Shown here in pieces: positions 9,237 to 62,571 of a stretch of 64,000 nucleotides of DNA. The translations under genes and the position numbers were made by a program. The DNA is from Candidatus Moanabacter tarae (GTDB taxonomy: Bacteria; Verrucomicrobiota; Verrucomicrobiia; Opitutales; UBA2987). How positions within the stretch are numbered: position 1 is the first letter of the stretch; every line of letters starts with the position of its first letter. Location: NCBI GenBank assembly GCA_003226295.1, contig CP029803.1, positions 1,607,477 through 1,671,476 on the forward strand, read 5' to 3'. The notes under the pieces were generated by a model. That model worked only from the letters and a program-made list of their open reading frames with translations, was not told where the DNA came from and made no database searches.

Positions 9237-9473
9237 CCTAGGGTAAGGGAAGATCAAAATTTCAAATGCCCGATTCTCCTAGCTAGATCAGTTACAGCAG
9301 CGTCAATTGTTATTTCTTTGTCCCAAGACGGTCCTGCGCTAGAGCCTCTCACAGTGATAAGGAAACAATTTTAGTATCTGTAAATACCATCTCCAATTTG
9401 GAACGAGACGGATCTGCAGAACATTCTCCACCTTAATTTTCTCGACCATGATCGGATCATTCTGGGAGAATCT

Positions 9474-9923
9474 ATGAGCATGAGCAAATCTAACATCCGA
9501 CGTTACGAGGCCAAAGCCCAAACCACAAACACATTTGGACGCGTGCTCTGTAGTTGTCGCAATCATCATTTTATTGTTGATGGCCCTGTGCAAAACGGCT
9601 GCCCTGGAGAAGAAGTTACTCCTGGAGAATATTTTCTTGCCGGCATCGCCGCTTGCGGAGTCGAACTTCTTCAAGTATTGGCCCACCAAGAGGAAACCCA
9701 TCTCAAATCGGTGAACGTGGACATTGCGGGTGAGATGGACCGCAGCAGTCCGATACACCCTGAATTTACACTATTCAACTCTATCCGCCTAAAATTCCGC
9801 CTTGAAGGAGTCTCTATTGATCGAGGTCAACAACTCGTCGAATCTTTCAAGGGTCGCTGACCCCTGTACGGTTCGGTTGCAGTTGCGACCCCAGACGTTG
9901 AGGTGGAGGTAGAAATCGTGTGA
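9474..9923 (+). CDS. OsmC/Ohr-family peroxidase, probable selenoprotein read through TGA at 9858-9860
   Basis: The first 128 codons encode an OsmC-fold protein with GEYFLAGIAACGVELLQ carrying the first redox cysteine, C61. A TGA follows, but the same frame stays open for 20 more codons (PLYGSVAVATPDVEVEVEIV) to a second TGA at 9921. That tail is the usual final beta strand of the family, where the second cysteine stands as C-P-L/V-Y. Here TGA occupies that cysteine, residue 129 of a 149-residue protein, a normal OsmC length. A SECIS-like hairpin follows. OsmC proteins reduce hydroperoxides with a cysteine pair, so selenocysteine would be chemically sensible. Alternatives are a recent nonsense mutation or a TGC/TGT sequencing error. 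No selA, selB, selC or selD is in the window. Confidence 0.7.
9861..9903 (+). promoter_or_regulatory. Candidate bacterial SECIS element
   Basis: Fourteen bases after the TGA, GGTTGC (9875-9880) pairs with GCGACC (9885-9890) with one G-U wobble and closes the 4-base loop AGTT. The loop has a G at its second position, and the loop begins 20 bases after the TGA. Both agree with the known bacterial SECIS pattern. An irregular lower stem is possible (9863-9865 with 9901-9903, and 9868-9870 with 9896-9898). The upper stem resembles that of E. coli fdhF. The 3' arm can also pair with GGGTCGC at 9851-9857 just before the TGA, a competing fold. Confidence 0.55.
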
Positions 9924-10176
9924 GGGTCAATAGTTCCAAGTTTAGGCCCTGTCGCCACCAATCCCCGGCCATGGCCAAATCACTTTCACAAACCAAGCAA
10001 GGGAACCGATGGTATTCGTTGTCTCCTTTTAACTCAGCAAGGGAGCGTTAGCTAATAATTGGCCCCGATCTGGGGCGCAAAAATATCACATTTGATATCG
10101 GAAAATAAATACAATTTAATCTTCTTTCTCTATTCCTCCAAATGCAATAACCTGCGCGCGAGAAAGATCTTCTCCA

Positions 10177-12969
10177 TCACCCATCTACTGACGAAGTCGT
10201 TTCCTTCATTCGTTCAGCTCCTTCTTTGATATTCATCTCTTCGTTATCCCGAAGCACCTTTTCAAAATCAACTGCACTTACCTTGTACTCAGGACAGAGG
10301 CTTTCCTCATCTTTCTCTTCACTCGTGACATTATTCACAAGATGTTCAGGAAAATGGAAGGTTGTATAGAGGATTCCTGGTTTAACCTCCCCGGAAACCT
10401 TGGCGTGCAATTGAACCTCGCCCCGACTAGAAAATAATCGTACATAGTCTCCAGTCTCGATTCCCTTATCGGCCGCATCTCGGGGATTGATAGCGAGAAT
10501 ATCCTCGCCGCAGATGACGCGGTTTCCTGTTCTCCGCGTCATGGTTCCAGAATTATAATGCTCTAGAATTCGCCCAGTTGTCAAAATGAACGGATACTCT
10601 TCACTATTTTTCTCTATCTCTTGTGACTCTACCCAGTCCCAGAAATGAAATTTACCTCTACCCCGTTTAAAAGTCTCTTTATGGAGAATCTTCGTATCGG
10701 TCCCATCTTCTACAACTGGCCACTGCTTTCCATTCTCGCCTAGCTCACTCCATCGGATCCCTTTAAAAAAGGGCACCACTTCAGAGATTTCTCTTAAAAG
10801 GACAGCTGGATCATAGTCCTCTTGCTTATAGCCCATGCGGTTCATAACGTCGACAATGATTTGGCCGTCCACTTTGGTTCCTTTTAGCGGCTCGACCACG
10901 GCATTAACCCGTTGAACCCGCCTCTCTGCGCTGGTAAAAGTTCCACTCTTTTCTAAGAAGGAAGTCGCAGGTAAAATCACATCGGCATACTCCGCAGTTT
11001 CCGTCATAAAGATCTCCTGAACGACCAGGAAATCGAGACTTGTCATCGCCTTAATCACATCAGCTGAATTCGGATCTGACTGCACCACATCCTCTCCGAT
11101 GATCCAGAGCGATTTTAATTTTTTCTCCTTCGCTGCATCGAACATCTGCGGAATTTTATAGCCAATGTCTGTCGAAACCGAAACACCATAAGATTTCTCG
11201 TAGTACTCCTGTATCTCAGGCAGAGTTACGTTCAGGTAACCAGCACCTTGATGTGGTTGCACACCCATATCAGCTGCCCCTTGGACATTATTCTGCCCCC
11301 GTAACGGATTCACTCCCACTCCTTCGCGACCGATGTTCCCTGTCATCATCGCAAGATTCGAAATAAGCATGACAGTTTTGCTCCCCTGAGAGTGCTCCGT
11401 TACACCAAGGCCATGAAAACTCATGGCGCGTGAAACGGAGGCATAGGCAATCGCTGCCTCCCGAACAAGTTTTCGATCTACTCCAGTAACCCGTTCGAGT
11501 TCATCAATATCAAGTTGTTTTATCTTTTCCCTGAAGATTTCAAAATCTTCGCAGCGCTCATTTACAAAACTCTCGTCGACCAATCCTGCCTCTATGATGA
11601 AATAGGCAAACATATTGAGCAATGCCACATTTGTCCCAGGTCGAAGCTGCAAGTGGTATTGAGCGTATGGGACGAGCTCAATCTCACGCGGGTCTATCAC
11701 TATAAGAGGAACTCCCTTCATCACCCTTTGTTTAATTCGAGCCCCAGTTACCGGATGGCCATGGGTTGGGTTTGCCCCGACAATTAAGATTAGTTCCGTC
11801 TTTTCAAGATCGCTGGTTGAATTAGTTGCTGCACCGGTCCCAAAGCTCTGCTGCATACCCCAAGCAGTGGGGGCGTGACAAACCCGAGCACAACAATCAA
11901 TGTTGTTTGTCCCAATTACCGCACGAATGAATTTCTGCATCAGGTAGTTCTCTTCATTGGTGCATCTAGCGGACGAAATACCTGCGATCGCATCAGCACC
12001 CCACTTAGACCGAATCTCTCTGAAACGATCTACTATCGTTTCGTAGGCCTCATCCCACGAAACTTCCACAAATTCTCCCTTCCTTCGAATCAATGGGCTA
12101 CGCAAACGCTCAGGATGATTGTAAAACCGAAAGGCATATCTTCCCTTTAGGCAGGTGTGTGCGTGATTAACCTCAGCATCGACCGGCGCCTGGATGGATT
12201 GAACTTCATTATTCTTTGTCGACACCTCAAGATTACAACCCACCCCACAATAGGTGCAAACAGTCCTCGTCTTCGCAGTCGGCTCAATCGACTTCGAACG
12301 GAAAATATCTGAGATCGCTGAAGTGGGACAAGCCTGAGCACAGGCCCCACACGACACGCAGTCGGAGTTTGCGAATGAGGTGTCTAATCCTTTGATTATC
12401 CGGCTTTCAAACCCTCGGCCAAACATGCTGAGTACAAACTGACCCTGTACTTCATCGCAAGCTCGCACACATCGGCTACAATTGATGCATTTCGATAGAT
12501 CCGAGGTCATGTAAGGATGACTCAGGTCCTTCTCTCGATCCATATGATGCTTGCCCTCAGGGTAACGCACGCTTCGCATCCCCACCTTCGCCGCAACAGT
12601 CTGTAATTCACAATTTCCATTAACCTCGCAGGTCAGGCAATCAAGCGGATGATCCGTCAAAACGAGCTCAACGATATTACGCCGGAGACGCTGAACTCTA
12701 TCTGATTCCAGAAAAACATGAAGACTCTCGGTTAAGGGCGTATGACAAGCCGCTACTACACGGCGGGACCCATTCTCTGACTGAGCTATCTCCACCGAAC
12801 AAACTCGGCAAGCCCCATAGGATTCGAGCTGAGGCGCATCACAAAGTGTTGGAATATGACCCCGTCCGTGGAGCCGGTCGACCAGACTCAGAATTGTTTC
12901 CCCTTCCTCAAACTCGCAGGCTTGCCCATCTACGTAGGCTACCTTCGCTTCCCCTCTGATTTTTATCAT
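10177..12969 (-). CDS. fdsA: NAD-dependent formate dehydrogenase, molybdenum/tungsten catalytic subunit
   Basis: This is a 930-residue FdsA-type subunit oxidising formate to CO2. Domains in order are an N-terminal [2Fe-2S] ferredoxin (C43, C54, C57, C75), a NuoG-like His-Cys cluster (H107, C111, C114, C120), two [4Fe-4S] clusters (C161-C171 and C204-C214), then a molybdopterin oxidoreductase domain with its own cluster (C238, C241, C245, C273). The active-site ligand is C364 followed by H365 in ARVCHAPT. The codon is TGT, so this enzyme is the cysteine form and not the selenocysteine form. The C-terminal molydopterin dinucleotide domain closes the protein. Its ATG overlaps the stop of fdsB by four bases, so the two are cotranscribed. 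Confidence 0.93.
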   Translation of the reverse strand: MIKIRGEAKVAYVDGQACEFEEGETILSLVDRLHGRGHIPTLCDAPQLESYGACRVCSVEIAQSENGSRRVVAACHTPLTESLHVFLESDRVQRLRRNIVELVLTDHPLDCLTCEVNGNCELQTVAAKVGMRSVRYPEGKHHMDREKDLSHPYMTSDLSKCINCSRCVRACDEVQGQFVLSMFGRGFESRIIKGLDTSFANSDCVSCGACAQACPTSAISDIFRSKSIEPTAKTRTVCTYCGVGCNLEVSTKNNEVQSIQAPVDAEVNHAHTCLKGRYAFRFYNHPERLRSPLIRRKGEFVEVSWDEAYETIVDRFREIRSKWGADAIAGISSARCTNEENYLMQKFIRAVIGTNNIDCCARVCHAPTAWGMQQSFGTGAATNSTSDLEKTELILIVGANPTHGHPVTGARIKQRVMKGVPLIVIDPREIELVPYAQYHLQLRPGTNVALLNMFAYFIIEAGLVDESFVNERCEDFEIFREKIKQLDIDELERVTGVDRKLVREAAIAYASVSRAMSFHGLGVTEHSQGSKTVMLISNLAMMTGNIGREGVGVNPLRGQNNVQGAADMGVQPHQGAGYLNVTLPEIQEYYEKSYGVSVSTDIGYKIPQMFDAAKEKKLKSLWIIGEDVVQSDPNSADVIKAMTSLDFLVVQEIFMTETAEYADVILPATSFLEKSGTFTSAERRVQRVNAVVEPLKGTKVDGQIIVDVMNRMGYKQEDYDPAVLLREISEVVPFFKGIRWSELGENGKQWPVVEDGTDTKILHKETFKRGRGKFHFWDWVESQEIEKNSEEYPFILTTGRILEHYNSGTMTRRTGNRVICGEDILAINPRDAADKGIETGDYVRLFSSRGEVQLHAKVSGEVKPGILYTTFHFPEHLVNNVTSEEKDEESLCPEYKVSAVDFEKVLRDNEEMNIKEGAERMKETTSSVDG

Positions 12970-14618
12970 AGCTCGCCCCCGGGATTAAGGAGATTCGGCT
13001 TTAGTTCATCTCTAAAGTAGTGAATTGCGTTCTTTATGGGCAATGGAACCCCACCACCTAAAGCACACAACGATGTTGACTCCATAGTCTCTAACAAATC
13101 TGTGAGCAGCTCAAGGTCAATCTTGTAGTCACTGGTCCGAGCGCGCTCAACAAGTTCCTGTCCACGAACTGACCCCAACCGACACGGAAAACATTTTCCA
13201 CAAGATTCAGCAGCTGTAAATTCAAACAAATGCTCAATATATTGCAGCATCGAAAAATCTTCTGGTATGCTGACGATACTACCGTGCCCCAAAAGAAAAC
13301 CTTCCTCCCTGAATGATTCGAAATCAACCGTAAGATCAATGATTTTTTCCATGGGCACAATCCCCCCCAATGGCCCCCCCACTTGGACCGCCTTAACCGG
13401 GGCCTTGAAACCACCACCCATATCAAAAATCACCTCCGAAAGCGGAGAACCCATCTCAACTTCGTAAAGGCCAGGCCGATTGAATTTCCCGTCCAGGGAA
13501 AGAAGCTTTGGACCCGTAGAATCACTGGTTCCGATTTCCGCGAAGGCTTTCCCCCCGATTTCAAACAAGTAGTGTACACAGGAGAATGTCTCCACGTTAT
13601 TCACGATTGTTGGCCTGCCGAAGAGACCCGCCTCCGTAGGGAATGGAGGTCGGACTCCCACTTCAGGACGCCGTCCCTCAATGGAAGCCAGTAATGCGGT
13701 TTCTTCACCACATATATAAGCTCCAGCACCCTTAATCGTCTTAAAATGAAAGGAAAATCCACTTCCTAAGATATTCTCACCAATGAATCCTTGTTCCTGA
13801 AGCTCCTCGATCGTTTCCTCGATCGTTTTAATCGATTCAGGGTACTCGGCCCGGATGTAAAGTACTCCTATTCCCGATCCAACCAAGTACCCCGCCACCA
13901 TCATCCCAAACAGCACGGAGTGCGGCCTTTCCTCCATTAGATACCGATCGATATAGGCTCCCGGATCCCCTTCATCAGCATTACACACAATGTACTTAGG
14001 AGATCCCTTTGCTTTTCGACAGGATTCCCACTTGATTCCAGTCGGGAAACCCGCCCCTCCCCGGCCTCTCAATTTCGATGCCTTAAGCTCATCAATCAAA
14101 TCAGATGGATTTCGTTTCAAGATTTCCTTCAGCAATCCATAATATTCTTCGACCCCAGGAAAATCATCTAAAAGGATAGGAGACTCCATATTCGAGGCAG
14201 TTAAGTACTCGTCCGAAGTAGCACCCTCTCCTTCCGATAGAATCGTCGCCAGTTCTCCATCCTCTTTGCCGGAATAATTAACCCCGGCGTACTGGAAAGA
14301 TCCGTTCTCATGACATCGGCCCAAGCAACAAATCTCTCCAATTTCCTCCTCTTTAAGGTACTTCCCAATCTGATCCTTAAGGTTTGTCTGAGTGCCCGCG
14401 GTCATACAGGCTGTCCCATTGCAAATCAAAGCCTTCTTGCCCTTGTTCTCCTCTTTCAGAAAATCGTAAAATGAAACAGTTCCAAGAGTGGTCGCATCAC
14501 CAATCAAATACTCCTCGGATAATTCACTGAGATGTCCGTCTCCCGCCTCTACGAGACGTTCGAAGAGGTTTTTATCTAACCCCTTTCTGAAGGACAACGA
14601 ACTGATATTCTTTGACAT
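12966..14618 (-). CDS. fdsB: Formate dehydrogenase NADH-binding subunit with fused NuoE-like domain
   Basis: This 550-residue diaphorase subunit passes electrons from the catalytic subunit to NAD+. Residues about 40-125 are a thioredoxin-like [2Fe-2S] domain with all four NuoE-type cysteines (C66-x4-C71 and C98-x3-C102). The rest is NuoF-like: an FMN/NADH glycine-rich loop GRGGAGFPTG near 185-194, GAYICGEETALL, and a C-terminal [4Fe-4S] site SCGKCFPCR with a later CALG cysteine. Because the NuoE cysteines are intact, the fusion can replace a separate gamma subunit (FdsG). None is present nearby, and neither is FdsD. The gene begins the two-gene operon with fdsA. Confidence 0.9.
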   Translation of the reverse strand: MSKNISSLSFRKGLDKNLFERLVEAGDGHLSELSEEYLIGDATTLGTVSFYDFLKEENKGKKALICNGTACMTAGTQTNLKDQIGKYLKEEEIGEICCLGRCHENGSFQYAGVNYSGKEDGELATILSEGEGATSDEYLTASNMESPILLDDFPGVEEYYGLLKEILKRNPSDLIDELKASKLRGRGGAGFPTGIKWESCRKAKGSPKYIVCNADEGDPGAYIDRYLMEERPHSVLFGMMVAGYLVGSGIGVLYIRAEYPESIKTIEETIEELQEQGFIGENILGSGFSFHFKTIKGAGAYICGEETALLASIEGRRPEVGVRPPFPTEAGLFGRPTIVNNVETFSCVHYLFEIGGKAFAEIGTSDSTGPKLLSLDGKFNRPGLYEVEMGSPLSEVIFDMGGGFKAPVKAVQVGGPLGGIVPMEKIIDLTVDFESFREEGFLLGHGSIVSIPEDFSMLQYIEHLFEFTAAESCGKCFPCRLGSVRGQELVERARTSDYKIDLELLTDLLETMESTSLCALGGGVPLPIKNAIHYFRDELKPNLLNPGGEL

Positions 14619-61383: not shown

Positions 61384-62571
61384 GTGGGCCGCATCATACG
61401 AATTATAAAAAACTATGAGATTGTGCTTTGTGTGCTTCTAACGGTAGTTTTCGTCACGCTCGTTTCAGCTCAAGAAGTAAAACCTAAAAGCAAAAAAGTG
61501 ACGGAATTAAAGCTATCCGGACGCTTACAAGCTCAGTGGGACCACATTGAGTCCGATGAAACCGACGCCGATCGCAACCACTTTTATTTCCGCCGCCTCT
61601 TCTTTGGCGGGCATGCCAAGCTGGGAGACAATTGGGGAGGGGACGTGGTACTGGACTTCGCCGCCTCTCCTAACTCGGAAAGCAGCGGCAAGGCTGATCA
61701 GGTCTTCATTGACGGAGCTTCAGCTTGGTACAAGGTCAACGATTTTATCCGACTCGACTTTGGCCAGCTTAAAGTTCCCTTCGGGATGGAGGAAACATCC
61801 TCATCCTCCAAGATCAAGGCAATCGAGCGCTCGGCAATGAACCGCCAATTTGCAGAACACCTCAAGTTCCATGCCCGCCATATGGGCATTTTTGCCAAAG
61901 GAAATCTCAGCAAATCGGGTTTCTCCTATAATGCCGCTATCGTAAACGCAGGACAAAACCACAACTCTAAGGATTCTGCCCTAAGGAAAGGGCTCTACGG
62001 ATACAAACGCAACGAATTCGCCTACTTCGGACGAATTGCCTATTCTAACTACGATGCGGAACTCCGCCACGTCTTCGGATTGGCTGCAGGCTTACAGCCT
62101 AACACTGAATATAAAGGATTAAACTCCACCGTGGACGTTGACAAAACAACTGCTTTAAACTTCTTCGCTCATCTCGGGTACGGGACTTTCAATCTGGACA
62201 CTGAGTATATGTTCGGCGAAGCCGACGTGACGGGTGGCAACCACAAACACAACGGTTATGCCGTGCAGGCGTCCTATACATTCAACAACGCACCCAAAGG
62301 AGTTTGGGAATTCGTTTACCGCTACTCTGCAGTGGACGGAACAGGAGCTAATGATCTTGTCTCAACTAAGGAAATTATCCGCAGAGCGAATATTTCCTCA
62401 AAGTTCGACGAGGCTAATAAACTCGATCAGCACTACTTCGGCGTTAACTACCAATTCCAGGGACACGACGCAAAACTCATGCTTGGGTATGAATCGAACA
62501 AGGCTACGGATACTACCTACGGCTCCCGTAACTTTTCCGGTTTCCGAACTCGCGTCCAAGTTCTCTTCTAA
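61384..62571 (+). CDS. Phosphate-selective porin O/P-type outer-membrane channel
   Basis: This 395-residue protein starts at GTG 61384, preceded by AAGG; the signal region (IVLCVLLTVVFVTLVSAQ) follows. The remainder is beta-barrel-like with LSGRLQAQWDHIESDE, FYFRRLFFGGHAKLGDNWGGDVVLDF, FRLDFGQLKVPFGMEE and a C-terminal FRTRVQVLF ending in an aromatic residue, as outer-membrane barrels do. This is the OprO/OprP (phosphate or polyphosphate porin) type. Directly behind it is a dead pstS, so phosphate uptake genes once stood together. Confidence 0.85.
   Translation: MGRIIRIIKNYEIVLCVLLTVVFVTLVSAQEVKPKSKKVTELKLSGRLQAQWDHIESDETDADRNHFYFRRLFFGGHAKLGDNWGGDVVLDFAASPNSESSGKADQVFIDGASAWYKVNDFIRLDFGQLKVPFGMEETSSSSKIKAIERSAMNRQFAEHLKFHARHMGIFAKGNLSKSGFSYNAAIVNAGQNHNSKDSALRKGLYGYKRNEFAYFGRIAYSNYDAELRHVFGLAAGLQPNTEYKGLNSTVDVDKTTALNFFAHLGYGTFNLDTEYMFGEADVTGGNHKHNGYAVQASYTFNNAPKGVWEFVYRYSAVDGTGANDLVSTKEIIRRANISSKFDEANKLDQHYFGVNYQFQGHDAKLMLGYESNKATDTTYGSRNFSGFRTRVQVLF

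Follow-up and report, generated by a model that had tools for sequence, protein, structure and literature searches.

An OsmC-like gene with an in-frame TGA codon

The window, by which we mean the whole analysed stretch of 64,000 nucleotides of the Candidatus Moanabacter tarae genome, carries an OsmC-like gene on its plus strand. The frame (9474-9923) begins with an ATG at 9474, an alternative ATG at 9480 fits the N-termini of relatives equally well, and a single in-frame TGA at 9858-9860 corresponds to residue 129. The locus comprises the following features, with U denoting selenocysteine (Sec).

9474..9923, plus strand: predicted selenoprotein gene, 149 residues with Sec129 (translation with TGA as U; PF02566 spans the TGA; homology over the full length)
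9654..9656, plus strand: Cys61 codon, for the first of the two OsmC cysteines (invariant in 35/35 homologues; equivalent in alignments to the peroxidatic cysteine in Ohr and to the Sec of NF041052 members)
9858..9860, plus strand: predicted selenocysteine codon TGA for residue 129 in the motif R-U-P-L-Y-G (Ohr has its second Cys, in VCPYS, at the aligned place; TGA in 32/35 homologues, TGC in 3/35, nothing else)
9861..9920, plus strand: post-TGA tail of 20 codons, predicted to be translated (residues kept through synonymous codons)
9875..9890, plus strand: SECIS hairpin, 6-bp stem, loop AGUU (stem fully paired in 32/32 TGA genes; the two outer loop bases covary)
9921..9923, plus strand: true stop TGA (the conserved protein ends here; relatives end at the same place or a few codons off)

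The original prediction had described a frame running 20 codons past the TGA to a second stop, with a tail that completes the OsmC fold. The two stops were seen at 9858-9860 and 9921-9923, and the Pfam OsmC domain PF02566 matched residues 45-144, across the TGA, with 40.8 bits (cut-off 27.5). PF02566 was also matched by 17/17 sequences of the family alignment A2. The predicted fold resembles OsmC/Ohr structures of the PDB (best 6mjn, Foldseek E 4e-4) in a structure model of moderate quality (pLDDT 77; residues 24-46 poor).

Removal of duplicates left a homologue set of 35 distinct genes from Burkholderiales/Betaproteobacteria, Gemmatimonadota, Acidobacteriota and Myxococcota MAGs and from the Candidatus Moanabacter tarae genome; according to their record titles, several relatives are groundwater or soil MAGs. 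A GTDB genome search yielded 16 relatives with 51-63% identity over the full length of the product, 15 of them with TGA at the exact codon; the sixteenth, which comes from a Myxococcota MAG, has TGC. In a survey of 74 genomes of a betaproteobacterial family, all 19 full-length matches contained one TGA, and additional weaker or partial matches were found; the 346 Gemmatimonadota genomes surveyed gave ten matches, eight with a TGA and two without. No relatives were detected in viral contigs by pattern search or in plasmids by tblastn. One locus (L057, minus strand) holds a fused remnant, in which 25 tail residues including RUPLYG and the hairpin follow an unrelated frame resembling a thiamine-diphosphate enzyme.

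As predicted, the TGA stands at the second cysteine of the family: residue 129 aligns with the second Cys of Ohr, and alignment of the homologues placed Cys, encoded by TGC, there in three relatives. Relatives with a stop and an unconserved tail would have spoken against this reading; in the 32 TGA genes, however, the tail is conserved. In all of them Leu131 is constant through five different codons and Val142 through four, and Pro130 is coded by three codons. Judged by this codon usage, the 20-codon tail is translated.

The SECIS hairpin

The predicted hairpin 14 bases downstream of the TGA, with a 4-base loop and G at its second position, was recovered exactly. The spacing comprises 9861-9874, and the stem GGUUGC/GCGACC pairs 9875-9880 with 9885-9890 in 6 bp around the loop AGUU. 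The published bSECIS model asks for a loop of 3-9 nt located 16-37 nt after the UGA, a stem of 4-16 bp, a G at loop position 1 or 2 and an MFE of -7.5 or lower, and includes an N1-N2 loop base pair (PMC13188914). The hairpin conforms to these rules with its 4-nt loop, 6 bp, G at position 2 and a distance of 20 nt from the UGA. The folding energy is -8.6 kcal/mol for the 22-nt core and approximately -7.5 for the bare 16-nt helix, i.e. about at the limit. The core folds with z = -3.7, and the whole 43 nt with z = -0.4, which is not significant. Since the folding energy of the 43 nt is unremarkable, the case for a SECIS element rests on comparison and not on energy.

The likeness of the upper stem to that of fdhF was borne out by a 10-mer of the 5' arm, TCGGTTGCAG, which is identical to the SECIS of E. 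coli fdhF (sequence from NC_000913). Both elements have a 4-base loop with G. The fdhF loop, however, begins 18 nt after the UGA compared with 20 nt here, the bulged U of the fdhF upper stem is absent, and the protein is a different one. When the 64 kb window was passed in its six frames through a crude bSECIS-plus-readthrough filter, two TGAs remained, those at 9858-9860 and at 61838 (plus strand); the latter lies in an unremarkable frame and looks like a chance hit. The former is conserved in 31 further genomes, far more than chance would give. A search of 9400-10000 against Rfam at a permissive threshold returned chance matches only.

All six stem pairs are intact in 32/32 TGA genes. In an alignment of 16 sequences pairing along the helix is complete (100%), and it was lost when the partner columns were shifted by one to three. 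Changes on both sides were found at three pairs, if the two outer loop bases are included as a pair, and the covariation score was reached by none of 500 shuffles. At this loop pair, 22 of the 32 TGA genes have G-C and the other 10 have A-U, without exception. One compensatory pair involves purely synonymous sites, namely the third base of an Ala codon and that of a Val codon; thus, the loop covariation is not explained by the amino acids. In the three Cys forms (L068, L063 and L024) the hairpin has decayed, the helix being broken by one to four pairs in each, as expected because Sec is no longer needed there.

Selenocysteine machinery and distribution of the gene

The host genome (2.63 Mb, single contig, 98% complete) was searched for selA, selB, selC (tRNA-Sec) and selD, and all four were found within about 6 kb. 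Coordinates refer to the genome contig C1.

199980-201899: selB, 300 bits, above the curated cut-off
201993-203315: selA, 505 bits, above the curated cut-off
203408-205717 (G000; L105 9409-11718): selD, C-terminal half of a 769-residue fusion, 269 bits versus a cut-off of 125
205937-206029: tRNA-Sec, anticodon UCA

The fusion partner of SelD is a pyridine-nucleotide oxidoreductase-like N-terminus, and the fusion gene adjoins tRNA-Sec, selA and selB. Other selenoproteins were looked for in the window, in 19 kb surrounding the sel genes and in Fdh-alpha. Genes for an NAD-dependent formate dehydrogenase are located at window positions 10177-14618 on the minus strand, convergent with the selenoprotein gene, and encode a NuoF-like protein together with an Fdh-alpha that has a fused NuoG-like N-terminus. 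A Sec-containing formate dehydrogenase as neighbour was rejected: where Sec usually stands, this Fdh-alpha, for which the genome has no second match, carries Cys (RVCHAPT).

Among the 16 relative genomes, 14 have selA above cut-off and the remaining two contain selA fragments at contig ends. For the Cys forms, selA is missing in the genome of L068 and present in those of L063 and L024. Within the phylum of Candidatus Moanabacter tarae, 388 genomes were sampled and the gene was found in this genome only. Three genomes of the same family have neither the selenoprotein gene nor selA, and SelB scored above cut-off in 4/132 relatives. In several small-genome relatives (G121, G028, G014, G109 and others), TGA or TAA codons occur inside EF-Tu-like matches to the selB model; these are probably match ends overrunning the gene's stop. 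A horizontal gain of the gene in this lineage is likely, and the donor does not emerge from the tree (support 81/58). Cys forms nest within Sec forms in the tree with modest support, which suggests, at that same level of support, at least two Sec-to-Cys changes.

Recoding, catalysis and relation to known OsmC proteins

The TGA/TGC pattern at codon 129, the conserved helix, the sel genes and the constrained tail together indicate selenocysteine at residue 129, and the gene very probably encodes a selenoprotein whose Sec occupies the second redox position. From the sequence comparison, recoding, the SECIS element, the machinery and the position can be regarded as established. A lone in-frame stop near the 3' end, with TGC at codon 129 in three homologues, might also be expected of a pseudogene or of a TGT or TGC misread, i.e. 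of a nonsense mutation or a sequencing error. This explanation is refuted by the relatives and deserves practically no weight, since the TGA is common to 31 other genomes from at least three phyla together with a covarying hairpin, in agreement with the initial view that a random nonsense mutation is unlikely here, and since the tail is constrained at the protein level. It is extremely improbable, too, that the TGA is a real stop and the tail behind a 128-residue protein vestigial or only rarely reached by readthrough. Elsewhere UGA does act as a stop, and a second TGA at 9921 ends the gene, but the tail residues are invariant despite synonymous change (Leu131, Val142), tRNA-Sec and SelB are present and the Pfam domain crosses the TGA. 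Reading of TGA as Trp was rejected on account of Cys in homologues at that codon and the tRNA-Sec of the genome. Finally, the gene might belong to the known OsmC-like selenoproteins with the motif UxxT from the Sargasso Sea/GOS data (PMC1088965, PMC2398784, PMC13188914). The original prediction had pointed to such a family in marine metagenomes and considered it plausible here, though possibly rare in this lineage; the family is real (PMC1088965, PMC2398784), but the Sec of UxxT proteins sits at the first cysteine and the window gene is therefore of a different kind and no rare member of that family. Fold and Pfam family are common to both, both are predicted selenoproteins, and the UxxT model NF041052 is the best NCBIfam match of the window protein; however, its score is 34.4 bits versus a cut-off of 95 and the identity is about 18%. 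Three NF041052 members above cut-off have the TGA in AF-U-LLTQL, i.e. at the first cysteine, and Cys at the second, whereas the window protein has Cys61 and U-P-L-Y at 129. Membership in this family is thus very unlikely.

Profile alignment with solved Ohr structures equates Cys61 with the peroxidatic and residue 129 with the resolving Cys; the redox cysteines of X. fastidiosa Ohr are Cys61 and Cys125, and its catalytic Glu is Glu51 (PMC5962072). In the homologues, Gly, Ala or Pro is aligned with this Glu, and an invariant Glu52 follows one residue later, as does a Glu in the YhfA-like L056. The Ohr Glu, which directly follows a Pro ahead of the first Cys, holds a catalytic Arg of the N-terminal loop; Arg9, Arg23 and Arg29 are invariant in the homologues, but this loop is poorly modelled in the predicted structure. 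Since the Ohr Glu is not at its aligned place, peroxidase chemistry of the Ohr type cannot be taken for granted. YhfA proteins are without the Ohr Arg and Glu, and no activity has been assigned to them (PMC8945050). Inspection of the open frames flanking 13 relatives revealed no conserved gene neighbourhood and no hint at a substrate. The product is most likely a YhfA/Ohr-like thiol/selenol redox enzyme of the 2-Cys type. For its synthesis, SelB with Sec-tRNA would bind the hairpin directly after the UGA (9858-9860) and insert Sec at residue 129; without this insertion, a 128-residue product missing the last strand would result. Sec129, at the second Cys of the OsmC/Ohr active site, would pair with Cys61 on the central helix. 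Cys61 would be oxidised by a peroxide, probably an organic one, and Sec129 would resolve the oxidised Cys61 to a C61-U129 selenenylsulfide, which a thiol reductant (in Ohr, a lipoylated protein) might recycle. We infer peroxidase-type chemistry, the attacking residue and the reductant, and such a C61-U129 peroxide cycle would be the most economical reading; the chances that the cycle runs as written appear evenly balanced. Most selenoenzymes attack with their Sec. Together with the loss of the Ohr Glu close to the first cysteine, this speaks for swapped roles, in which Sec129 attacks and Cys61 resolves, or else the protein may be a disulfide or sulfur-transfer enzyme and not a peroxidase. Homology, on the other hand, places the attacking Cys of Ohr at position 61 (PMC5962072). 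We consider these alternatives possible, if somewhat doubtful; they rival the enzymatic half of the Sec129 selenoprotein explanation only.

Overall, the gene probably represents an undescribed family with Sec at the OsmC/Ohr resolving position, a mirror of the UxxT proteins, in which Sec would have been acquired independently at either end of the redox pair of one fold, and in this genome the gene would be horizontally gained. In the accessible part of the literature on OsmC-like selenoproteins we found the UxxT form only, and a listing of the family in the groundwater MAG survey cited by PMC13188914 is possible. The deep-Sep list of new selenoprotein families contains no OsmC protein. These genes lie beyond the reach of the existing model NF041052, and automatic annotation is therefore expected to call them truncated 128-residue proteins or pseudogenes. 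The family would be a new selenium client for Burkholderiales, Gemmatimonadota and Acidobacteriota. The two kinds of OsmC selenoproteins amount to a natural experiment that asks at which member of a redox pair selenium is of advantage, with selenium presumed at the attacking residue in the UxxT kind and at the resolving residue in the UPLYG kind. Given 32 Sec and three Cys forms and the suggested minimum of two conversions, this question is directly testable with natural variants.

Compared with known systems, the window protein shares with Ohr (organic hydroperoxide reductase), for instance that of X. fastidiosa (PDB 1ZB8/4XX2), the fold and both redox positions, aligned with Cys61 and U129. 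Ohr differs in having a resolving Cys where the window protein has the predicted Sec, in its catalytic Glu, which is without counterpart at the aligned position, and in overall sequence (16-26% identity); against the Ohr model TIGR03561 the window protein scored 29.2 bits, below the cut-off of 88.85. The YhfA/COG1765 group likewise keeps both redox positions and lacks the Ohr Glu at its place, and it has a P-x-E ahead of the first Cys and a CPLH-like second motif, as seen in the YhfA-like L056; its second position, however, is Cys and not Sec. With the UxxT proteins (NF041052) the window protein has in common the OsmC fold, the predicted recoding by a bacterial SECIS element and the two redox positions, but the arrangement is reversed, the UxxT Sec being at the central-helix Cys. 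Two distant OsmC branches therefore appear to differ in which end of the redox pair bears the selenium.
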